Assembly: GCF_035582795.1 (NCBI RefSeq)
Contig: NW_027445436.1
Location: 4,958,770 to 5,022,769, forward strand
DNA length: 64,000 bases
DNA from: Mycteria americana
Lineage: Eukaryota > Chordata > Aves > Ciconiiformes > Ciconiidae
Direction of reading: 5' to 3'
Shown here: positions 7,374 through 59,519 of the stretch, in pieces
Layout: each line of letters opens with the position of its first letter
Position numbering within the stretch: the stretch's first letter is position 1
Notes under the pieces: generated by a model
Seen by the model: the letters and a program-made list of their open reading frames with translations, nothing else
What the model was told of the DNA's origin: nothing
The model's database searches: none
Position numbers and translations under genes: made by a program

Positions 7374-9784
7374 CCCCCAAAAGCTAAAAGTACTGAAACC
7401 AAACTCTAGTGAAGGCCTTAAGTGGAATATTGCCCACCTTGATGATTAGAGATTAGTGCAATATGGCACTGGAAGGAATGCTATTGCTGTCAAGGAAATA
7501 ATTTTTTCTGTGGCAAATGGAGATTAAGACAGAAAACGCGCAGGAAGTACATGAAAGTTATAATCTGTCCCATGGATTTTATAATTTGCATGATGTGGCA
7601 TTGACACATAAATACACGCATTCTGCTAAATTCTGTGTTGAAGATTTAAAGTGTGATTAAAAGGTAAGCATTTGACTTTATTAACATGATTTTTTACTGA
7701 TTTTTGAGACTTTCTAGTGTATAAAGACTTTAAAATTTACTTCTAAACTCATAGTATTTTTTGGCTCACCTCGCACTGTGCTCTCAAAAGTTTTCCTGAT
7801 CTAGATTTCTAGTTACAAACTAAGCTTACACTTTGAAAATCTGAGATAAATGTTATTATCATTATCATTTTCATGAATGTCTTGCATTCAACAGAGTTCT
7901 ACCAGGTTTATAAATAAATCAGAAATTTCTAGTACATACATTTTACTATAATTTCGTAATTTACACTCAAGATAATATACTTAATCTCAAAAAAGTTCTT
8001 TAAAATAAAATTAGCAGACAGAAACGAGCTGCAGGTTACCTACACCTACATAGTTACAATGTTTGACATTCATTGGGGTAATGCTTAGCTTGTCATATTA
8101 TATTTCCTTTTGGACATCGCTTTTGAGTCATAACCTTGTACTATTTCCATCTATATCCGATCTAGAGAAATACCTGTGATTTTCTAAAAGCTGTATTTAT
8201 ATTGAAACAAATAAATGTTATGAAGCACACATTCCTAAACTGTTCCAAATCAATGGCCAGAACTATATGTTATTCAGAATAACAGTACAGTAATAAATAC
8301 AAATCATTAGTACAATTATCCAGGATGAAACGGTATTAAATTCTGTAATTCACAAATGCTGGGCTAAACTTGACATCTGAGCATGCAAAGACTTAAACAA
8401 CCATGGGTATCTGGTAGGTCAGCAGGAAGCAGAGCATGGCTTCTTCTCCCAATGAGTGACTTGGAGCAGCTGACAGGCTCAGGGCATTCCAAATTCCTCG
8501 ATTGGACTCTCCTCTTTTATTGTTGAGTTGCAGAAGCACTATCTGGACCAATCATTATATCCCACCTCTGTTCCCCCTCTCTGCCAGTTCTTTCCTTTGT
8601 GTGCACAGTACTCAGATGCTACCTATTGAACACATATAATTTGTGCACAACCACCATATGGAGCTATAGCCAAATAAGGTACAGGATCACAATGTGGGGG
8701 AAATACCATATAAGGCAATACTAGCTCCACAATGACTGTGACACCAACATGGCAGAATAGCAATTTCACAAATGTTGTGGTTTCTAAGCTGTGGATTACT
8801 AAGTACTCTCCTTTCCCATTTTCTTAACACAGAAATATAAATTCTGTACCACTGCTAAACAGATGTTAGATTTTAGCTGCTCACAAATCAGGGACTCAGG
8901 TTAACAAATAGTATTTGTCACTGGCTGTAAAATTTGATGGGCAAAACCACTCAACTACATGGTTGTGCATGGAGCCTTTTTGCTGGTACTGACCAAAGTG
9001 CATGACTTGCAATAGCCATATGTAGTGATCCTGACCAGGAAACCATTGTACATCGAGGAGCTAGTGATCCACATAACAGTTAACTCGAGTAGGCCCAGGC
9101 CTGTGCTGGGCTGTGCTGCACTATGCTACACGTACAGCGTGGCCTTCAGGCCTGTGTTGTGCTGCACAAATCCCTTGGCCGCAGAATAACCTCAGCCAGC
9201 TCATTGTAACAAAGGAGCCTGCAGGCAGCTCCCACTTGGTACTGGTAATTATGCCACCTGCGTGTCCTTGCCTTTATCTATAAGCGCAGCAAGAAGTTCT
9301 CATGTGAACATCCTTTCTGTTTGACAGTAGAAATGATGAATAGAGTTGTTTTCCTTTAAGAAAATCCAAGCTTGAATGACCAAAATAGGGGACACTTTCT
9401 CTTCTACAGACGGATCTGCACGGCGTGCTCTGCGTGGATCAGAGTCCTGTTCGATGCTACACTGCTCGGGGTTCCTGGCATCTAAAGGGACGTAAGATTA
9501 TCCATGCTATTCTCTTCTTATAGTGTTAGCTCTAATAAATAGCATTGTGAATGATACCTTACAGAGTCTGAGTGCCTTCCTTACTGGGATCACAATGAAC
9601 CAGCACCTCCCTGTGCAAAACACCATAGAAAGCATGATTTTATTTTAGTAAGAAGAGAACAGAAAGAAAACTTGTGACAAGAGTTTCTTGGTAAACCAGA
9701 AGAAGAGAAAGAAAGAGATTAAACAATTTGTTTAACTGTTTTTTATATTTCCTTTCATATTTTTTAAAATATCACAGATGGAAG
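7374..9784. other. Non-coding, possibly an old LTR near 9000-9596
   Basis: No convincing gene. The stretch 9000-9596 has an LTR-like order: a CTATAAG box near 9279, an AATAAA near 9534, and a CA end near 9596. However, I found no second copy, primer site or duplication, so I do not call it. The rest is AT-rich unique-looking DNA. Confidence 0.4.
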
Positions 9785-10450
9785 TGAAAGGGTTAAATCC
9801 CTGACAGTCCCTGACTAAGACATAGACTTGCATTTTTTTTTTAGTTTCACTCATCCTTGTTCTCTTTTGTTCTCTTCCCCTGCAAAGATAGTTTTGGTTA
9901 CCTGCTGAGCAGAGTTGATGGTGGAACATCTCCTGTGACTTCTTACCTGATAGGACTAAGCAGGCCTTGAGCAAGCTCGTTAGGCTTCCTAATTAAATCA
10001 CTGATAAGAGGAACTTAGGACAATTGTGCCAAAGATAAGCACCAAAGAACTAGCTTAAATCGACCCCCTTGTAACATTCCAAGGCCGAAGGACTGATGAG
10101 CTAACTCAATGACTATATATGGACAAAGGAAGCCCAAAGTTCAACTAGTGGACAACGTGAGGAAGACTATGGAAGACCACCGGGAGGGTGAAAAGACCCT
10201 AACCCTAATTTTACTGCGCATGCTTGGACTATGTAAATGAATTCCGGGAACTCATCACCATAAAACTGCCCTTTTCAAGAAATCTGATGAATATGTATGA
10301 TTTTTCTGTATATGAACTGATGTGTTGTGCTAACCTGGCGGAGCACTTGTGGCGGAGCGATCCCCAGTGCTGCCCAGCGCTGCAATAAAGAATACCTGCT
10401 TAATAGTCATCCCGACTATTGAGTTCTGATTTCGGCTTTTCACGGCAACA
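9785..10450 (+). repeat. 5' LTR of provirus C (type 1)
   Basis: It begins TGAAAGGGTT and ends CACGGCAACA, 666 bp. The first ~530 bp recur at 15167-15692. A polyadenylation signal AATAAA is at 10384-10389. The final ~115 bp (R/U5) are nearly identical to the end of the type-2 LTR at 16373. Confidence 0.92.
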
Positions 10451-15148: not shown

Positions 15149-15166
15149 AAAAAGAAAAGGGGGAAA
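15149..15166 (+). promoter_or_regulatory. Polypurine tract of provirus C
   Basis: An unbroken purine run AAAAAGAAAAGGGGGAAA directly precedes the TG of the 3' LTR at 15167, the usual plus-strand primer position. Confidence 0.85.
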
Positions 15167-15693
15167 TGAAAGGGTTAAATCCCTGACAGTCCCTGACTAA
15201 GACATAGACTTGCATTTTTTTTTTAGTTTCACTCATCCTTGTTCTCTTTTGTTCTCTTCCCCTGCAAAGATAGTTTTGGTTACCTGCTGAGCAGAGTTGA
15301 TGGTGGAACATCTCCTGTGACTTCTTACCTGATAGGACTAAGCAGGCCTTGAGCAAGCTCGTTAGGCTTCCTAATTAAATCACTGATAAGAGGAACTTAG
15401 GACAATTGTGCCAAAGATAAGCACCAAAGAACTAGCTTAAATCGACCCCCTTGTAACATTCCAAGGCCTGATGAGCTAACTCAATGACTATATATGGACA
15501 AAGGAAGCCCAAAGTTCAACTAGTGGACAACGTGAGGAAGACTATGGAAGACCACCGGGAGGGTGAAAAGACCCTAACCCTAATTTTACTGCGCATGCTT
15601 GGACTATGTAAATGAATTCCGGGAACTCATCACCATAAAACTGCCCTTTTCAAGAAATCTGATGAATATGTATGATTTTTCTGTATATGAACT
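15167..15693 (+). repeat. Truncated type-1 3' LTR of provirus C
   Basis: It matches 9785-10316 almost base for base (one short deletion near 15467), then stops at CTGTATATGAAC. The expected R/U5 does not follow directly. A second LTR starts instead. Confidence 0.9.
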
Positions 15694-16621: not shown

Positions 16622-16626
16622 CACTC

Positions 16627-16866
16627 TGTTGCGTTAAGAGTTACTGTCGCGTTACAAATAGGAGTCTGAGGAGTGGCTGGGGGGGAACCCTCCCGTAGAG
16701 TCACGAGGTTCAGACAGGACCCTCTTGCTTTCTAAACTCCTTCTCCGAGAGGAGTCTAGGTGCAGCTAGGGGGTCCTGTCTGAACCTCGTGACTCTACGG
16801 GAGGGTTCCCCCCCAGCCACTCCTCAGACTCCTATTTGTAACGCGACAGTAACTCTTAACGCAACA
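16627..16866. repeat. Perfect foldback of U5 replacing the 5' LTR of D
   Basis: 16627-16722 and 16771-16866 are exact reverse complements (96/96 bp) around a 48-bp loop. The loop plus left arm (144 bp) is the terminal U5 of the D LTR in inverted orientation, matching about 23785-23934. The right arm is the last 96 bp of the same U5 in normal orientation. There is no U3 or R in normal orientation. Both outer ends are therefore U5 ends (TG..., ...CA). Confidence 0.95.
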
Positions 16867-16874
16867 GAAAAAAT

Positions 16875-16892
16875 TGGCGTAGTCGGCAGGAT
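16875..16892 (+). promoter_or_regulatory. Primer-binding site, tRNA-Ser type
   Basis: TGGCGTAGTCGGCAGGAT is the complement of a vertebrate serine tRNA 3' end. It lies 8 bp after the LTR end and only 4 bp before the first ATG. Confidence 0.85.
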
Positions 16893-16896
16893 TGCC

Positions 16897-17424
16897 ATGG
16901 ATAAACTGCTGCAAAAATACAAATGTGCCCCTTCCCAGGCTGGGAAGGAGTGGGCTCAAAAATTTTGAAAGAATGAAGAGAAAGTGAGAGAATGCATTGA
17001 GCAGTGTCAGGCTGTGCAAAGGTTTGGAGTGAAAAAAGGTGAAGGTGTAATTTGTGCGGTGTTAGGAGCCTGTTTGTCTTGTGCTCAGCAAGAAGCTGAG
17101 AAAACCCCTGCTCCCAAACTAGTTTCCGATGCGGAATATTCAACTTTAGAATCGGAAAATGAGGTGTTGAAGTCATCATTGGCCTTTGAGAGGGAGACAG
17201 GAAAAACACTAAGAACCCGAGTTGATAACCTTGTGAGTGAAAATGATAACCTTGTGAGTGAAAATGATAAACTTGTGAGCAAGAATGATAAACTTGTGCG
17301 TGAGAATAATAAACGTATGAGTGAGAATAATAAACTTGTGAGTGAGAATAATCATCTTAAACAATTTCTGGAAAGGGTTAATCAGCTGCTAGATAAAATG
17401 CAACCTTCTGCTCCAGTTGAGTAG
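16897..17424 (+). pseudogene. gag-position coiled-coil gene of provirus D
   Basis: ATG at 16897, almost touching the primer site. One in-frame TGA at 16966-16968, and otherwise the frame is open to TAG at 17422. The product would be about 175 residues. The first 60 residues are basic/cysteine-containing. From about residue 80 on is a long coiled coil with six consecutive 7-residue units of the LVSENDK type (DNA period 21 bp, 17227-17355). The frame continues past the TAG into an acidic segment. I do not see capsid or zinc-knuckle motifs. The closest idea is the ENS-1/ERNI coiled-coil region, uncertain. Confidence 0.7.
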
Positions 17425-18150
17425 ATTCATAGATTAACGCGTGGTGCAAACCCTGAAATTGGGGATGGTGATTTTTGGTTTGACAGTGATGATCATGAGG
17501 TCAAAGGTACCTCCGATTCTGAGCCTCAATTGATTTCCTTACGACCTTTGGTTAAAACTGAGACCGCTGTTGATGATGATGACGAAATCTGCACTACTGT
17601 GCGAACAATTCCATGGTCACCATTGGTCCAATCTCTGGGTAAAAAGAATAACCCAGCTGGGGAGAATTGCCTAGCTGGAAAACCCCCAACCCACAAGGAA
17701 AGTGCACCTTCTGCACCAGGCCTAATTGATGAGGCGGAATCTCAACAAAAAAACCTTTCATCCCCGGGGAGGGCAGTGAGCCACCCTGCTTGGCAGGTAT
17801 TAGCAATTCAATGGCTGTCTGATGAATGCTCTGACCCTATCATTGTCATTCCCGTTGGACCCCGAAAAATATTGGTAAACTTTCTTATTGACACCAGGGC
17901 CCAAATGTCAGTAATTACCCATGAAACAGCACAAACCCTGGGCATAAGACCTGGCCAATGCAGGGTTAAATTCACAGGAATGGAAAAGGAATGCACCACT
18001 GAAAAAAATTCACCCTGGTTGCCAGAAGAACGAAGATTAACCAGGGCAGAGGTATTAGCCGGTGCTGCATATACTAACATTCTAGGATTTGAGATATGGG
18101 TGTATGTGGAAACTCCCAGATGGAACTGTGTGGAGTTCTGCAAGAGGTAA
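17425..18150 (+). pseudogene. Acidic linker and protease remnant of provirus D
   Basis: The frame of the coiled-coil gene continues past its stop: an acidic part (DDDDEI near 17571) and then an aspartic-protease-like segment FLIDTRAQMSVITHE at about 17881-17925. The usual D-T/S-G active site reads DTRA, so it would be inactive. The ILGFEIW segment near 18080 fits a protease C-terminal strand. A frameshift near 18120-18150 separates it from the reverse transcriptase. Confidence 0.7.
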
Positions 18151-18620
18151 AAAGGAATCAGGCATAGTGAAACTGAGTCTGTTACAAACACCTATACCCT
18201 TACCCCCCTCTAAAATCACTAATGTTCGGCAATATTCATCTCCAGCAGCAGCGCTTATGGGGATTGACGGGGTGGTAACGGAATTGGAAAAAAGAGGCAT
18301 CATTAAAAGGACTCATTCGCCCTATAATTCACCAGTGTGGCCAGTAAAGAAACCAACCGGGCAATGGCGTTTTACAGTGGATTACCGACAGTTAAACGCT
18401 AACACTACACCTTTGACTGCCGCAGTTCCAAACATGGCAAAAATAGTGACACTGATACAGGGAGCTGCCCATCCCTGGATGACTGCCTTGGCAGGAAAAG
18501 TACACCGGATTAGCACCCGGTGGATCTCACCCTCTTTTTTAACCCTGCCGGTTAAATACAACCGAGCACGTTTGTTTCCTTTTTGTGTTCACAGGAATCC
18601 TGAAAGAAGATGACTCCAAT
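18151..18620 (+). pseudogene. pol: Reverse transcriptase N-terminal remnant of provirus D
   Basis: YNSPVWPVKKPTGQWRFTVD and YRQLNANTTPL (about 18318-18416) are fingers-domain motifs of retroviral reverse transcriptase. The sequence then collapses near 18490-18620 with no YXDD palm, RNase H or integrase before env sequence begins. So nearly all of pol is deleted. Confidence 0.8.
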
Positions 18621-18804
18621 TGAAGTAGATGTCTGCAAAATGCGGCAAGGGGAGTTGTATTGGAATCAAAGTATACTTTAAATTCAGCAGCATTTTGCAG
18701 ACAACTCCTTTGATGTGTAGCCAGAAAGACCCAGAATGGCCATGGTCCCAAGCCCACATTAAATACAATGGAATTATTTGAACATGTGCCATCAAAGAAA
18801 ATTT

Positions 18805-19826
18805 AAACTTAGCTACTGTAATTATGCATGGTTCCCATGTGTTCTCAAGACACGAGTGGAGCTGGGATAACGGATGGCTTCCACTCCTGAAGGGAAAAGC
18901 AGGAGAAGAAATCCAGGTAGGATGTAGAATGATCAACGGATCAACCCATGAAAAGGTCACATCCATGACAATATCCAACATTTCCAGAAATCCAATAGCG
19001 TCAAAGTCTTGTGTCACTGACGAGTGGGATTGTTGGTATAACTTTACTCTGGTGGGACCCACTATTGTGGCTTGTGTATGGCAACAACACTGTACAGGGC
19101 CAGGGATGTCAAAGCAACACTGTATAGGGCTGTCATTCTGGTTCAGAATATATATGATTGAACCTGATCCAACTACACCACCTGACCTAACCTCACCCAC
19201 TCCATTTGACACACTGCAAGATGGAGTTAGGAATGTACCCATTTTCATCACGGTATCTTACAATGACCCTTGGGACCATGCATTGTCACGATATAGTGCA
19301 AGCACTGGAACACAACAAAACAGAAGGAACTTAAGTATCTCTGTTCTAGTTATGCATGGAAATGAAGTATACTCAAAAGATGAGTGGAGTTGGAATGACT
19401 CTCTTCGGATGGCCAGAATTCAAGCCATTCCAGGGAAGACAATACAGATTAGCTGCCGAGTAACTAATGGGTCCACTTACCATAGGCCGACTGAAATTAA
19501 AACAGTCTATACTGACTCTTCCAGACCGGAAAATTATAAGGCTGAGTGTTACAAAATAACCAAACCAAATTCAGATTGCTGGTACAATCTTACCTTTACC
19601 AAACCTATAATTGTGTACTGTCTTTGGGGTTACAGAGGCACCGAATTACTATTTGAATTTATGATTGATACAGCAACATCTGTGCCAGTTGCAAAGGATA
19701 AGGAACCTCTGCCCCCACAAATGTCTGAAAATGTATCGACTCGGCCTCCCATTAGTCTAACTCCTTTCATCTTCAACACAGGCCCTTACATAATTAAAAA
19801 TACAGGTCAGCAACAAGTGCTGTTTA
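18805..19826 (+). pseudogene. env: env surface region of provirus D with duplicated module
   Basis: An open frame from 18824 to the CR1 insertion near 19826. Two related modules are visible: about 18821-19080 and 19351-19635. Both share VMHG, EWSW, a Cys before NGST, a second Cys, then DCWYN(F/L)T and IV.C.W. Spacing of the cysteines suggests two immunoglobulin-like or similar beta domains, each with sugar sites. The start codon and signal peptide are not evident because pol sequence is deleted just upstream. The frame is cut by CR1. Confidence 0.7.
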
Positions 19827-21056
19827 CAGAATCACAGAATCACAGAATCATATAGGTTGGAAAGGACCTTTAAGATCATCGAGTCCAGCCATAAACCTAA
19901 CACTACCAAAACCACCACTACACCATGTCTCTAAGCACCTCATCCAAACGTCCTTTAAATACCTCCAGGGATGGCGACTCAACCACTTCCCTGGGCAGCC
20001 TGTTCCAATGCTCCATAACCCTCTCGGTGAAGAAAAATTTCCTAATATCCAGTCTAAACCTCCCCTGGCACAACTTGAGGCCATTTCCTCTTGTCCTATC
20101 ACTTGTTACCTGGGAGAAGAGACCGACCCCCACCTCTCTACAACCTCCTTTCAGGTAGTTGAAGAGAGCGATAAGGTCTCCCCTCAGCCTCCTTTTCTCC
20201 AGGCTAAACAGTCCCAGCTCCCTCAGCTGCTCCTCATAAGACTTCTGCTCCAGACCCTTCACCAGCTTCGTTGCCCTTCTCTGGACACGCTCCAGCACCT
20301 CAATATCCCTCTTGTAGTGGGGGGCCCAAAACTGAACACAGTATTTGAGGTGCGGCCTCACCAGTGCCGAGTACAGGGGCACGATCACTTCCCTAGTCCT
20401 GCTGGCCACACTATTCCTGATACAAGCCAGGATGCCATTGGCTTTCTTGGCCACCTGGGCACACTGCTGGCTCATATTCAGGCGGCTGTCAACAAACACC
20501 CCCAGGTCCTTTTCTGCCAGGCAGCTTTCCAGCCACTCTTCCCCAAGCCTGTAGCGTTGCATGGGGTTGCTGTGGCCCAAGTGCAGGACCTTGCACTTGG
20601 CCTTGTTAAACCTCATACAATTGACCTCGGCCCATCGATCCAGCCTGTCCAGGTCCCTCTGCAGAGCCTGCCTACCCTCCAGCAGATCAACACTCCCACA
20701 CAACTTGGTGTCGTCTGCAAACTTACTGAGAGTACACTCGATCCCTTTGTCCAGATCATTGATAAAGATGTTAAACAGAACTTGCCCCAACACCGAGCCC
20801 TGGGGAACACCGCTTGTGACCGGCCGCCAACTGGAGTAGACTCCATTCACCACCACTCTTTGGGCCCGGCCGTCCAGCCAGTTCTTTACCCAGCGAAGAG
20901 TACACCCGTCCACGCCATGAGCAGCCAGTTTCTCCAGGAGAATGCTGTGGGAAACCGTGTCAAAGGCTTTACTGAAGTCTAGATAGACAACATCCACAGC
21001 CTTTCCCTCATCCACTAGGCGGGTCACCTTGTCATAGAAGGAGATCAGGTTGGTAA
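19827..21056 (-). mobile_element. CR1 LINE inserted in env of provirus D
   Basis: Minus-strand CR1 of about 1.23 kb. The 3' octamer tail (AATCACAG units) is at 19827-19847. An uninterrupted 369-codon frame (21027-19918) covers reverse transcriptase from [13 protein letters not shown] through GVPQGSVLG and FADDTKL to [21 protein letters not shown] lies on both sides (19821-19826 and 21064-21069), a candidate duplication. It is 5'-truncated (no endonuclease), so not autonomous, but the frame is undamaged. Confidence 0.93.
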
Positions 21057-22587
21057 ATCAGGTTGTTTAATCCGTCATACTCCCTCAAACGGGTGGAATT
21101 AGCAATGCAGACTAATATCTCTGCAATTAAACCTACCTGTTCACCATTCCTGAGCACATCTTACGCAGGATGGTCAGCATGGTTACATAAACGGACTCTA
21201 ATCTCTCCAAAACGATCAAAGAGAGATGTGACTGGTGTCTTAGGAACGGGACTGGGGAGTCTTAAACAGCATAGATGCTGAAGTACTTGCTAATAAATTA
21301 GCCACAGTAACCAATGACTTGAGTGCCCTGAAACACCCTTTACAATCTTCTCTTTCAGCTCTGGGAGCTAACCAATGGCTCTTATCGGATATGTTGCCTC
21401 AGTGGGGAAAGGTAAATGAGAAGGACCACCAGTTAATTGTGGATGCACTTGGTGCAGCCCAAACGAATGTTTCTTTAGCTCTTAGTTGTATCCAAGCTCA
21501 ATTGTGGATGCAATCTATAGTAGCTGCAATTATATGGGAAGGCGAGGAAGGCACCCTGCCCACTGAAATTCGAAAGGTAATTTGGGATAATGCAACTGAA
21601 TTTGAGAAAGAATTCCAATCCTGGTGGTATCCAGTTGATTTCACCTACGACCCTACTGACGGCAAAGCCACAGCTTTTGTCTTAACAATACGCAATGCTT
21701 CGGTATACACCATATACCCAATCATTGCATTGGGGTTGAATCACAATGGAACTATACTCTATCCATTAGAACATAGAGTATGGGCCCAACAAAATGGGAA
21801 CCTATGGCAAACTATTGATGTGAATGCATGTGTTGTACGGGAACAACAAGGATTTATTCGTGAGAGTAACACCCTCAAAGCCCAAGACATTTGTCTTGAC
21901 ACGGAACAAAATGTTTGCCATTTTGAAGTACAACCAGATGAAGCCCCTGAAACTGTACTTGTATATATCAGGAAAGGGTGCACTTGCATGAGAACCTTTT
22001 GTGATTCTGTATTTGTAGATAACGCCACTGTAGATATAGGTAATCACTCAAATGTTTGTGTTTGTAACTTTTCCAAAATTATGGGATGTGACTTCAACTA
22101 TTCAGCTCCTGTCACAACTCACCAACTGCTGCAAGCTGACTATACACTGTATCAAGACTTATTACCTGCCCCTATTGGAATGAACCTCACATTGGTGAGA
22201 AAACTACTGCAACACGATGACCTGAATCAACTGCTGGAACGCATCCGGAAAAATGGGCATAAGACATTAGTCACTGTCCACCATGACGCGGAAGAGATAC
22301 ATCACGTCTTAGAACGAGTGAAGAAAGATGGAGGACACCATTGGTGGGACACTTTGCTAGGATGGTCGCCGACCGCAACTGGAATTCTCAATAAGATGCT
22401 TCATCCAGTTGTTGTTCTGCTAATGCTCACTGTGATATGCTTCATTCTAACCATCGCGCTGTATGTTAGACTCTGGACTATGGTAAAGCGTTTGTCTCAT
22501 CAAATATCCCCACAAGACATATACGTACTCGATAATCCTCCCCACGAGAACGTATGTGATACACCCAAGGCATTCCAAATATCTTGA
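21057..22587 (+). pseudogene. env: env cleavage/transmembrane region of provirus D
   Basis: After the CR1 the env continues. A furin-type RSKR lies near 21218, followed by a glycine-rich segment that would be the fusion peptide. A frameshift near 21255-21265 follows, then a 430-codon open frame to TGA at 22585-22587. It has many NXT/S sites and a cysteine-rich middle (CTCMRTFC, CVCNFSKIMGC). A membrane anchor (VVVLLMLTVICFILTIAL) lies at about 22408-22461, with a short tail after it. It is damaged by the frameshift and by the CR1. Confidence 0.75.
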
Positions 22588-22631
22588 GCTGTTATGAAGC
22601 TTGAGTGACTATAGTCACGGGGTGGATTACA

Positions 22632-23934
22632 TGGAATAATTGTTGGAGGTGACTTAGAAATTAAACTTATATTCACACTTTTAGGTAAGGCACAGCACTG
22701 AAGAAGCTTCCCAGGTGGAATGCGGCTGACATGCAAGGAATCCATTCCATGGAAGTTCCCTAGGCCTGCAACCTTAGATGATGGTAATGCCAGGGGAACT
22801 TGGTGTGCTGACTCTAAGAGGTACTGCTCGGAGGGTGGAGCGGTGTGGAGATACTGTGGCCAGGCTCTGCAATTATATGGGAACTTAAAGGTGTCATGGA
22901 ACTGATAAGCTGCATATTTGCTACCCTGGGCCAACAGCCTGCCACGTTTTTGACAAAATGCTGTCCTTTTGGTGAACTTTGCTCATTATAACATCATTAT
23001 AATACCAAAACACACCTCCATCCCAAAAGCTACCCGCCTCCAAGGTGCGACCACCCCTCACTGAGCTTGCGCTCTGAATTTTCCTAGCCTATACCTTTAA
23101 AAGCGAAGCGAGAAAACTTTACACCAATCCTAAACAAAGGTATGTATGACTAGAGTCACTCAAGCTCCACCCGAAAGGTGAAAGATAGTATAAAATGGCT
23201 TAAGAGAAAGAGAATGTTAGGGAAGACACCATCGTGTACCACTGACCTCTGGGATCAGTCGACGGGCTGAGCCTCTCTTCCCCCCCATTGGGACGCCTTT
23301 GGGTAAGATTCGAACACTTGGTTATTCCAAGTGCCTCCCCGAGAAACTTAGAAATCTCTCTAGAGTTGCTTTATTAACTTTTTAACGTGTTTGTAGCTGG
23401 CAGTGTTACTCATACTCTTGGTATTTGCACGTGCTTTGCAGACAGTGAATTTATCACCAGTAATCCAAAGAATCTGTGTGTCTGTTGCTCTAATAAACTG
23501 CACTCTTCATTGATCTAGCTGTGGTAGTTCTCATTGAACACGACCAGGCTCTTTAAGTGTGGCCGTGATAGTTCATGCAACATGACTAGACTGGGGGTGT
23601 AAGCGCGTTATTAGTGAATCCGTAATCGTGAAGTTCAGTACGCTGGACATGACCGGACTTATAACGTTGTAAATTAATGCTGTTGCCTTAGTGAAAGCCC
23701 TGAGAGGGCTCTGGTTCTGATAAGTGGCTATACACACAGTCCTTAGAAAATAAACCGTTGACCAAGTCTGAGACTAAGACTGGACCTAGCTGCACCTAGA
23801 CTCCTCTCTGAGAAGGAGTTTAGAAAGCAAGGGGCTCCTGCCTGAACCTCGTGACTCAACGGGAGGGTTCCCCCCGCCCCCCAGCCACTCCTCAGACTCC
23901 TATTTGTAACGTGACAGTAACTCTTAACGCAACA
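22632..23934 (+). repeat. 3' LTR of provirus D (start uncertain)
   Basis: The end is certain: CGCAACA at 23934, next to CACTC. TATAAAA is at 23189-23195, AATAAA at 23492-23497 and another at 23749-23754. The start is proposed at 22632 only because GGGGTGGATTACA before it resembles the polypurine tract of the ERVL-like elements. The 5' LTR has no U3 to compare. The last ~100 bp differ from the foldback arms at about five places including a 6-bp insertion. Confidence 0.6.
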
Positions 23935-24061
23935 CACTCACAACACCTTGAATTAAATGTAAATGTGCCCATGAAAGGTATGTCTAAATGACTATTAAAA
24001 GCATGCAAAATGTTTTTAAATACTTGTTTACATTACACATTATCACAATAAAAAGCCTATA

Positions 24062-36959: not shown

Positions 36960-38408
36960 TGTACATGGCAAGGTTTTGGTAAGGGGGTGGGGAGGCTGCA
37001 GGGGTGGCCTCTGTGAGAAGAGGCCAGGGGCTGCCCTGTGCCACATACAGCTGGTTCCAGACAGCTCAGCAACAGACCCACCACAGGCCAAAGCTGAGCC
37101 AATCAGTGAAGTTGGTGGTGCCTCTTTGAAAACGTATTTAAGAAATGGCAAATGGTATTGTAACCAGATGTAACCAAAGTGATTAGTTTGTTCTTTTGTA
37201 ACTAAGCAACATAGAGATAGGAGCGGGGTAGACAATACTTTAATGTTGTGTTTATACATCTATGGCTATGGATATGCTACTATGCCCAAAGACAATAGGA
37301 CAAGGAGTAGTACGGACATGCTGCTATGCTCCCAGTACAGCCCCAGCCCATCTTGACAACGAGTCGAGGGGTAGTTAGAATAATTGGTTTGTGTTAGAAT
37401 AGGAATAAGGGTGCCAAATCATTGTTAGGGACCATGCACCGTGAAGAAGGGAAGCAAGTTACATAAGCAAGGTGGGATTGCGCATGTCCAGAAGAAGGGG
37501 TCAACTAAAGGACACACCTGTACGACCACCCAGGACCACCAAAGACCCCCACAGAAGCCCCTCGGAGTTCAAGGATGCATGCGTAATGACCATGCAAATA
37601 TGATAATTAGTTCTGGGAAATAGAATGAATATGTATGATCATTCTGGGAAATTTGATGCATATGTATGTAATTGGACAATATAAGCTTTGGTTGATATAA
37701 CCTGCGGTATGCACGCTAGGTGGGACGATCCCCCGTGCATCCGGTGCCGTAATAAAGAATGCCTGCTTCTTAATACTACATTGGTGTTAAGGAGTTTGAT
37801 TCCCAATTTCGGTGACAGTATGAGGAGTGAGGAAAAAACCATGAGGAACAAAAGTGCAAACACCAAGGTCAGAGAGGAAGGAGGGGGGAGGAGGTGCTCC
37901 AGGCACCAGTGCATATATTTCCCTGCAGCCTGTGGAAGAGACCACAGTGGAGCAGGTATTCTTCTGCAGCCCGTGGAGAATCCACGCTGCAGCAGACTGG
38001 AGAGGAGGCATGCTGGAGCAGGAGAGAAATGTGAGGAGGAAGGAGTGACAGAGAAGAACTGTTATGTACTGGCTGTAATCCCCCATTCCCCATCCCCCCT
38101 GTGCCACTGGTAGAGGAGTCAGGAATGAAGGAGTAAAGTTGAGCCTGGGAAGAAGGGGGGGGGGGGGGGGAAGGTGTTTTTTTAATGTTTGTCTTTGTTT
38201 CTCACTAGCCAAATCTATTTTAATCGGCAATAAATTAAATTTTCATTGAGTCTTTTACCCGCAATAGTAATTGGTAAGTGATCTCCCTGTCTTTAGCTCG
38301 AACCATGAGCTTTTTCATCTTATTTTCTTCCCCTGTCCTCTTTGAAGAGGGGGAGTGAGAGAATGGCTGGGTGGGTGTCTGGCAGCTGGCCAAGGTCAAC
38401 CCACCACA
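36960..38408 (+). mobile_element. Older avian solo LTR, split by a later LTR
   Basis: It starts TGTACATGGCAAGGTTTTGG and ends GGTCAACCCACCACA, the ends of an LTR type common in birds. Tandem CTGCAGCCYGTGGA units (about 37924-37990), a long G run (38154-38171) and an AATAAA (near 38229) are typical of it. About 786 bp once the nested LTR (37159-37817) and one GTAT are removed. No outer duplication is visible, so one end may be eroded. Confidence 0.8.
37159..37817 (+). mobile_element. Solo LTR of the provirus F family
   Basis: 659 bp, TGTAACCAGA to TCGGTGACA, the same length and sequence type as both LTRs of provirus F. It is flanked by GTAT (37155-37158 and 37818-37821), a 4-bp gamma-type duplication, and inserted in the LTR at 36960-38408. 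Confidence 0.95.
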
Positions 38409-54008: not shown

Positions 54009-54090
54009 TGTCAAAGGAGAAGCTGTTGCCCGAGCACTCACACACCATTCAGGGAGTCGCACACACACCACCCGAGACTTTAACTGCTAG
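54009..54090 (-). repeat. Terminal 82 bp of the 3' LTR of provirus G
   Basis: Matches 61398-61478 (end of the G 5' LTR) with a few differences. It starts TGTC at 54009, next to GGGA, and is cut at 54090 by provirus F. Confidence 0.88.
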
Positions 54091-54749
54091 TGTAACCAGA
54101 TGTAACCAAAGTGATTAGTTTGTTCTTTTGTAACTAAGCAACATAGAGATAGGAGCGGGGTAGGCAATACTTTAATGTTGTGTTTGTACATCTATGGCTA
54201 TGGATATGCTGCCATGTCCAAAGACAATAGGACGAGGAGTAGTACGGACATGCTGCTATGCTCCCAGTACAGCCCCAGCCCATCTTGACAACGAGTCGAG
54301 GGGTAGTTAGAATAATTGGTTTGTGTTAGAATAGGAATAAGGGTGCCAAATCATTGTTAGGGACCATGCACCGTGAAGAAGGGAAGCAAGTTACATAAGC
54401 AAGGTGATATTGCGCATGTCCAGAAGAAGGGGTCAACTAAAGGACACACCTGTACGACCACCCAGGACCACCAGAGACCCCCACGGAAGCCCCTCGGAGT
54501 TCAAGGACTCATGCGTAATGACCATGCAAATATGATAATTAGTTCTGGGAAATAGAATGAATATGCATGGTCATTCTGGGAAATTTGATGCATATGTATG
54601 TAACTGGACAATATAAGCTTTGGTTGATGTAACCTGCGGTATGCACGCTAGGTGGAATGATCCCCCGTGCATCCGGCGCCGTAATAAAGAATGCCTGCTT
54701 CTTAATACTACATTGGTGTTAAGGAGTTTGATTCCCAATTTCGGTGACA
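54091..54749 (+). repeat. 5' LTR of provirus F
   Basis: TGTAACCAGA to TCGGTGACA. CAATATAAGC near 54608 is the likely TATA element and AATAAA is at 54683-54688. Same type as the solo LTR at 37159-37817. Confidence 0.95.
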
Positions 54750-58860: not shown

Positions 58861-59519
58861 TGTAACCAGATGTAACCAAAGTGATTAGTTTGTTCTTTTG
58901 TAACTAAGCAACATAGAGATAGGAGCGGGATGGACAATACTTTAATGTTGTGTTTATACATCTATGGCTATGGATATGCTACTATGCCCAAAGACAATTG
59001 GATGAGGAGTAGTACGGACATGCTGCTATGCTCCCAGTACAGCCCCAGCCCATCTTGACAACGAGTCGAGGGGTAGTTAGAATAATTGGTTTGTGTTAGA
59101 ATAGGAATAAGGGTGCCAAATCATTGTTAGGGACCATGCACCGTGAAGAAGGGAAGCAAGTTACATAAGCAAGGTGATATTGCGCATGTCCAGAAGAAGG
59201 GGTCAGCTAAAGGACACACCTGTACGATCACCCAGGACCACCAGAGACCCCCACGGAAGCCCCTCGGAGTTCAAGGACTCATGCGTAATGACCACACAAA
59301 TATGATAATTAGTTCTGGGAAATAGAATGAATATGCATGGTCATTCTGGGAAATTTGATGCATATGTATGTAACTGGACAATATAAGCTTTGGTTGATGT
59401 AACCTGCGGTATGCACGCTAGGTGGAACGATCCCCCGTGCATCCAGTGCCGTAATAAAGAATGCCTGCTTCTTAATACTACATTGGTGTTAAGGAGTTTG
59501 ACTCCCGATTTCGGTGACA
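58861..59519 (+). repeat. 3' LTR of provirus F
   Basis: Full 659 bp, same ends as the 5' LTR. Several of its differences from the 5' LTR (for example at 58964-58984) agree with the solo LTR at 37159, which suggests those positions changed in the 5' LTR or that the LTRs have mixed origin. Confidence 0.95.

Follow-up and report, generated by a model that had tools for sequence, protein, structure and literature searches.

Minus-strand strong-stop DNA that folds back and primes its own copying has been termed a suicidal reaction, prevented by nucleocapsid (accessible portion of PMC3141651), and self-priming has been tied to the trans-activation response (TAR) stem-loop (accessible portion of PMC4668388). 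Asymmetric long terminal repeats (LTRs) in human immunodeficiency virus type 1 (HIV-1) are attributed to plus-strand strong-stop DNA made on one RNA copy and moved to the primer site on a second, and the second strand transfer has been argued to be possible within or between molecules (PMC9278108 and PMC5651808, respectively, each in its accessible portion). Here, we describe a provirus at 16622-23939 of a 64,000-nucleotide stretch of genomic DNA (contig NW_027445436.1, positions 4,958,770 to 5,022,769; hereafter the window) whose left end is built from an inverted U5, the 3' part of the LTR. It is very probably an integrated self-primed reverse transcription product with two U5 ends. A second provirus of the same family, on another contig, has the same architecture with a different junction.

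The provirus is bounded on the left by a 5-base pair (bp) target duplication, CACTC (16622-16626), directly against the LTR terminus TGTTGCG at 16627, and on the right by a second CACTC (23935-23939), directly against the GCAACA that ends at 23934. Next to the left duplication comes the U5-side end of the LTR, 144 bases long and inverted (16627-16770, minus strand), which reads 5' to 3' as minus-strand strong-stop DNA. This segment is the reverse complement of 23785-23934 in the 3' LTR, with 6 substitutions and one 6-base gap in the pairwise comparison and 7 differences over 144 bases in the multiple alignment. A direct U5 copy follows (16771-16866, plus strand, as are all features below unless otherwise stated); it is the exact complement of 16627-16722 (0/96 differences) and would be the product of self-primed synthesis. 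An exact inverted repeat of 96 bases is far beyond chance expectation, and an open repeat search returned an inverted repeat of 105 bases, 98% complementary, with arms 34 bases apart. The direct copy runs into an 8-base spacer, GAAAAAAT (16867-16874), and then into the primer binding site, TGGCGTAGTCGGCAGGATT (16875-16893), which we take to be that of a tRNA-Ser, as we take the host to belong to the birds. Where an ordinary provirus would begin, as it ends, with a U3-R-U5 of one orientation, this one has inverted U5 plus direct U5 on the left, and no other part of the LTR was matched upstream of gag in the window. TG...CA termini are joined to host DNA, and both of them, TGTTGCG and GCAACA, are U5 ends. 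The structural claims of a first-pass annotation made from the letters alone, namely the inverted 144 bp, the exact complement of its first 96 bases, the primer site at 16875 and the flanking CACTC, are all borne out; its claim that integration used two U5 ends is supported by the U5 terminus beside each CACTC.

The 3' LTR occupies 22630-23934 (1305 bases), with bounds judged from 26 LTR copies that have no adjoining internal sequence (L003-L028). Its start is set at 22630 because target duplications place it there: 19 of the 26 copies have an exact 5-bp duplication, three have one mismatch and four have none, a count that takes the best-fitting LTR end and so favours duplications (18 of 26 by eye, the copy L016 dropping out). 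Four of these copies have flanks in common. At its left edge the window copy has CA, as opposed to TG in most of the 26. The proviruses L047 and L036 likewise have 5-bp target duplications. A shorter LTR of 719 bases, starting at 23216 by an apparent purine tract, was rejected, as all 26 copies reach about 565 to 590 bases further left.

The first-pass annotation had suggested a genome-wide search for such ends, and when this was run within the family it returned a second inverted-U5 provirus, L042 on contig C6 (C6:39970422-39970661). The left end reads, in order, ATGACCTC, 160 bases of inverted U5, 80 bases of direct U5, GAAAAAT and the primer site; at the right end, the 3' LTR is followed by the host flank CCTCTCACTG. 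In alignment, the inverted part extends 14 bases further than that of the window, and the point at which direct U5 resumes is different. The C6 arms differ from each other at 5 of 79 positions, with two gaps, and from their own 3' LTR at 9 of 158 and 8 of 80. All three U5 copies are therefore mutually diverged, which fits their all dating from integration. As judged from its sequence, we read C6 as a separate, old event of the same kind, independent because it has another junction, a flanking CCTC on both sides and arms that have drifted apart. A single snap-back ancestor copied to both loci was rejected: the junctions differ, and the alignment of the two loci stops three bases past the terminus.

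In a gag tree of 22 of the 26 loci in the family census described below, the forks leave open a close kinship of the window and C6 proviruses. Their end branches are 0.028 and 0.023, respectively, and either the two would be similar in age or the branches would include time before integration. Internally, C6 keeps the order of the window provirus over two unbroken stretches, one reaching from the primer site as far as window position 19293 and the other from 22083 onward; the gap of about 1.5 kilobases (kb) between the compared parts fits the length of the window remainder minus an inserted long interspersed nuclear element (LINE). Both proviruses thus seem to be without pol, and their enzymes would have had to come from elsewhere, in trans.

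Self-priming requires the first segment to end, on its 3' side, in bases that pair with the template just past the point of resumption. In the window, the putative primer is AGCTAGG (16764-16770), the 3' end of the inverted segment, and the snap-back template site is 16723-16729, which reads TCTTGCT here and CCTTGCT in most relatives. With the present window sequence the primer forms five pairs and one wobble, which ranks this site first among 126 when 7 bases are compared. When the template comes from a relative, 6 of the 7 bases form Watson-Crick pairs in all but one of 43 copies (43 of 50 U5 rows, after removal of six window and C6 rows and L047), and among about 130 sites this one stands first outright in 37 copies and shares first place in 5; L010, a natural relative, gives 6/7 when used as template. 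The first-pass annotation had placed the snap-back on 16723-16725 with one G-T pair. The complementarity fits; that G-T pair probably arose by mutation of the window copy at a later time, and the priming duplex was probably better at the outset than had been thought. At C6, GGTCCAGTCTTAGTCT and the primer expected from comparison with L010 form 12 of 16 pairs plus two wobbles. Over 16 bases, none of the 124 sites suits this 3' end better, and of 7828 combinations of end and site only 4 are as good. At both loci the inverted segment begins at the U5 terminus and continues unbroken through the loop, and the direct arm runs on into the spacer and then the primer site.

The inverted ends of both proviruses fall within one stem-loop of the family U5, which corresponds to 23777-23843 of the window's 3' LTR. 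Its stem, GGACC:GGTCC, exceeds a predicted probability of 0.5 in 37 of the 45 copies when they are folded as RNA and in 32 of the 45 when they are folded as minus-strand DNA (45 of 50 U5 rows, setting aside four window and C6 arm rows and L047); it is no longer predicted in the 3' LTR of the window. When complementary DNA (cDNA) of the 3' LTR in the window is truncated where the window's inverted segment stops, its predicted fold pairs the cut end in the needed register.

From the anatomy, the target duplication, the complementarity and the second, independent case, we infer the following order of steps, including the use of two RNAs and of enzymes acting in trans. Synthesis of the minus strand, primed by transfer RNA (tRNA) on one packaged RNA, would have copied 144 U5 bases and stopped inside the U5 stem-loop. 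The new DNA would then have folded back, its 3' AGCTAGG annealing about 48 bases upstream, and extension of the folded end through the U5 end and the attached tRNA would have given a hairpin strand ending in primer-site sequence. Such a strand could be transferred to a minus strand because its 3' end is the same as that of ordinary plus-strand strong-stop DNA; it would stand in for the latter and anneal where a full minus strand ends, on its 3' side, in the complement of the primer site. Retroviral virions carry two RNAs, and on the other of these a second strong-stop DNA would have started the recipient minus strand. Completion of both strands through the hairpin would yield a linear DNA whose two ends are both U5 termini; integrase supplied in trans would cut these after CA and join them to the host with a 5-bp stagger. 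The left end has no U3, so that the provirus would be without a promoter of its own there.

The first-pass annotation had outlined much of this route, and its interpretation is supported overall, every step that it put forward being compatible with the sequence; of four amendments, the better priming duplex is given above and the undue likeness of the window arms below. It equated the inverted segment with nascent strong-stop DNA: arms and loop are collinear with strong-stop DNA, and the segment is probably a partial, truncated product rather than the full one. It also held that ordinary plus-strand transfer would yield the structure, which fits provided that a second strong-stop DNA is added to account for the 3' LTR.

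Several observations weigh against this interpretation. The match at the window junction is not notable beyond 7-8 bases, being equalled by 5 of 120 sites at 10 bases and 14 of 108 at 16; at 8 bases, 3 of 140 sites equal that of C6. The lengths compared (7, 8, 10 and 16 bases) were our own choice. When relatives supply both strands, the window duplex comprises five pairs and a wobble (L010, L003 and L019) or four and a wobble (L046). Folding is no less mixed: the cDNAs of L010 and of the C6 3' LTR, cut at the window's end, miss the needed register as best fold, so that one of three takes it, and when cut at the C6 end both form the stem with the last 11 bases unpaired. Cut there, the window's 3' LTR cDNA forms neither the stem nor a paired end. 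The window's own 144-base strand folds not unusually well (z 0.46), and the needed register has a probability of 0.01 in its present form. The C6 target duplication is CCTC, 4 bp as read against the 5 bp usual in the family, and reaches 5 bp (CCTCT) only on the assumption that the left junction has lost a T.

The divergence of the U5 copies adds to these points. The arms of the window are 0/96 apart, yet they stand about 5% from the 3' LTR (5/96 and 7/144); equal age predicts about 4 or 5 differences between the arms, and by our arithmetic the chance of finding none is about 1%. One substitution is present in both window arms and absent from the other rows compared. Either the arms were homogenized by later conversion within the inverted repeat, or the parent RNA carried the substitution and the two RNAs differed, an account that also needs a younger insertion. 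Furthermore, the 3' LTRs of both inverted-U5 proviruses (window 23777-23934 and, for C6, L030) share a long C tract plus CGTG that their own arms do not have. In the two normal proviruses that could be compared, L036 and L039, the 5' and 3' tails share peculiarities.

The identity of the window arms, together with their distance from the 3' LTR, is what a rearrangement after integration would explain. In this alternative, an ordinary provirus lost the U3-R part of its 5' LTR through template switching during replication or through fold-back repair, which left an inverted U5, and the TGT common to the LTR start (TGTGGG) and the inverted U5 end (TGTTGC) offers a possible microhomology. Such a rearrangement would have to stop exactly at the U5 terminus beside matching duplications, and to do so twice, on two contigs and with a junction of its own each time; the three U5 copies of C6 are all diverged, and repair would have no reason to start the inverted part at the tRNA-primed end. 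We consider it improbable. Slightly more doubtful still is a late strand switch, in which a full minus strand, on reaching U5, would jump to a minus-sense U5 template and run to its end. It would produce the same anatomy and two U5 ends, with nothing to favour it over fold-back, and the primer-template match in this opposite direction of switching is 0/7 in the window and 2/7 at C6, against 6/7 and 12/16 for fold-back. The complementarity at both loci thus fits fold-back of minus-strand DNA and not reverse switching, as far as sequence can tell. Finally, it is very unlikely that the structure arose in sequencing or assembly, for instance from a fold-back read: artefacts of this kind do make perfect arms, and those of the window are perfect over 96 bases in the assembly sequence (as distinct from reads), but they would not end at an LTR terminus beside CACTC, and C6, with the same architecture and diverged arms, weakens the worry of an error at a single spot.

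The frequency of self-primed left ends was gauged by a census with the gag start (16867-17200) as query, searched in the window's own 1.35-gigabase (Gb) assembly. It found 26 places, and all 26 first-look candidates were scored. Inverted-U5 left ends occur at two, L031 (the window) and L042 (C6), and forward LTR sequence lies upstream at 22. At 17 of these 22 the family U5 runs up to the primer site; L035 and L050 have a forward LTR with another U5 tail, L055 has a forward LTR and a damaged primer site, and in L056 gag directly follows an LTR start. L047, described below, completes the 22. One place, L049, has no LTR upstream, and another, L054, holds a piece of gag with its 5' end missing. 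The census could miss proviruses with damaged gag starts, and its rows are not all independent, since L043 and L044 are identical in the tree region and L037 and L040 nearly so. L043 and L044 (C1:214525858-214532143) are tandem proviruses 5955 bases apart with an LTR apparently common to both, as after unequal recombination. A separate search with the LTR start gave 650 first-look candidates, of which 40 were scored. Most of these candidates are presumably solo LTRs, to judge from the 26 copies adjoined by none of the gag or env pieces tested, and the two inverted-U5 cases may accordingly be set against a few hundred insertions, not two dozen.

Two census loci call for separate comment. L047 (C7:35752863-35753194; L058) has a forward LTR with an internal deletion, in which about 33 bases of U3 are joined to about 59 bases of the U5 end; its duplication is ATCAG. 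It may represent an asymmetric LTR from reverse transcription or a later deletion. In L049 (C1:149836265-149836597; L057), other DNA leads directly into the spacer and primer site, and a 3' LTR is present; with neither an inverted U5 nor a matching duplication, it was rejected as a third case. The spacer itself was considered as a scar of the junction and dismissed, as relatives likewise have about 6 to 8 bases between U5 and the primer site. The usual spacing is two bases, and in this family integrase would need to take more than two off the U5 end.

The internal region of the window provirus (16894-22629) contains short open frames in the place of gag, a frame in the place of env and an interrupting LINE. 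With 8 of 22 listed frames scanned against Pfam, no retroviral pol was recognised, protease-like matches were weak and below cut-offs, and the reverse transcriptase of the LINE was the only domain above them. This element, presumably of the CR1 type, lies antisense in the provirus (approximately 19826-21056, minus strand), and a stop-free frame of 379 codons holds its reverse transcriptase domain. The open frame 21244-22584 is taken as env by position and by eye; it had no Pfam match above cut-off, and comparison with the PDB gave nothing convincing (best E 0.065). In the gag place, 17223-17349 consists of six 21-base tandem repeats that encode a seven-residue, coiled-coil-like repeat, and the length of this region seems to differ between copies. 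Neither comparison with a phage collection nor a search of viral contigs by pattern turned up any match. Elsewhere in the window, 9780-10318 and 15162-15693 are direct repeats, 98.5% alike and about 5.4 kb apart, that may form a young LTR pair near the provirus; three direct copies that are 96-97% alike (37150-37817, 54082-54749 and 58861-59519) are possibly LTRs of another element family.

Overall, the two inherited proviruses seem to record self-priming carried to completion, and they suggest that integrase can pair two U5 ends in vivo and still produce a short duplication. Their junctions would mark the points at which cDNA synthesis broke off and so serve as a natural footprint of where reverse transcriptase paused. 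Any genome can be screened for the signature, an inverted U5 with a target duplication on one side and a primer site on the other, so that the frequency of this route becomes measurable. More tentatively, and at somewhat below even odds in our estimation, the U5 stem-loop may have made self-priming a recurrent route to promoterless, two-U5 proviruses that outlive normal copies because they do not easily collapse to solo LTRs by recombination between long LTRs.

A search of titles and abstract openings, with most subscription papers outside its reach, returned no description of an integrated self-primed strong-stop product, a result that does not establish its absence from print. The self-priming reaction itself is known, and the integrated, inherited form is best read as a new variant of it. 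With ordinary copies of its own family the variant shares its LTR, its spacer and its primer site, as well as the 5-bp duplication usual among them; the difference lies upstream, where a forward LTR is found in 22 of 26 and an inverted U5 in 2 of 26. HIV-1 proviruses with asymmetric LTRs resemble it in their unequal LTRs, but in the accessible part of that report the deletion is in the 3' LTR and an inverted U5 is not mentioned (PMC9278108). Aberrant integrations of HIV and Rous sarcoma virus likewise join abnormal viral ends to host DNA; as presented in the available portion of the source (PMC5041404), one end is apparently joined by host enzymes and the host DNA is rearranged, whereas here the short duplication indicates integrase at both ends. 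Known strong-stop self-priming is closest, in that a strong-stop hairpin folds back and primes its own copying. In this family, however, the hairpin belongs to the U5 side and the cDNA probably falls short of the full strong-stop length, unlike the known case as its accessible descriptions give it; and where those descriptions present a dead end, the product here appears to have been transferred, completed, integrated and inherited, twice.

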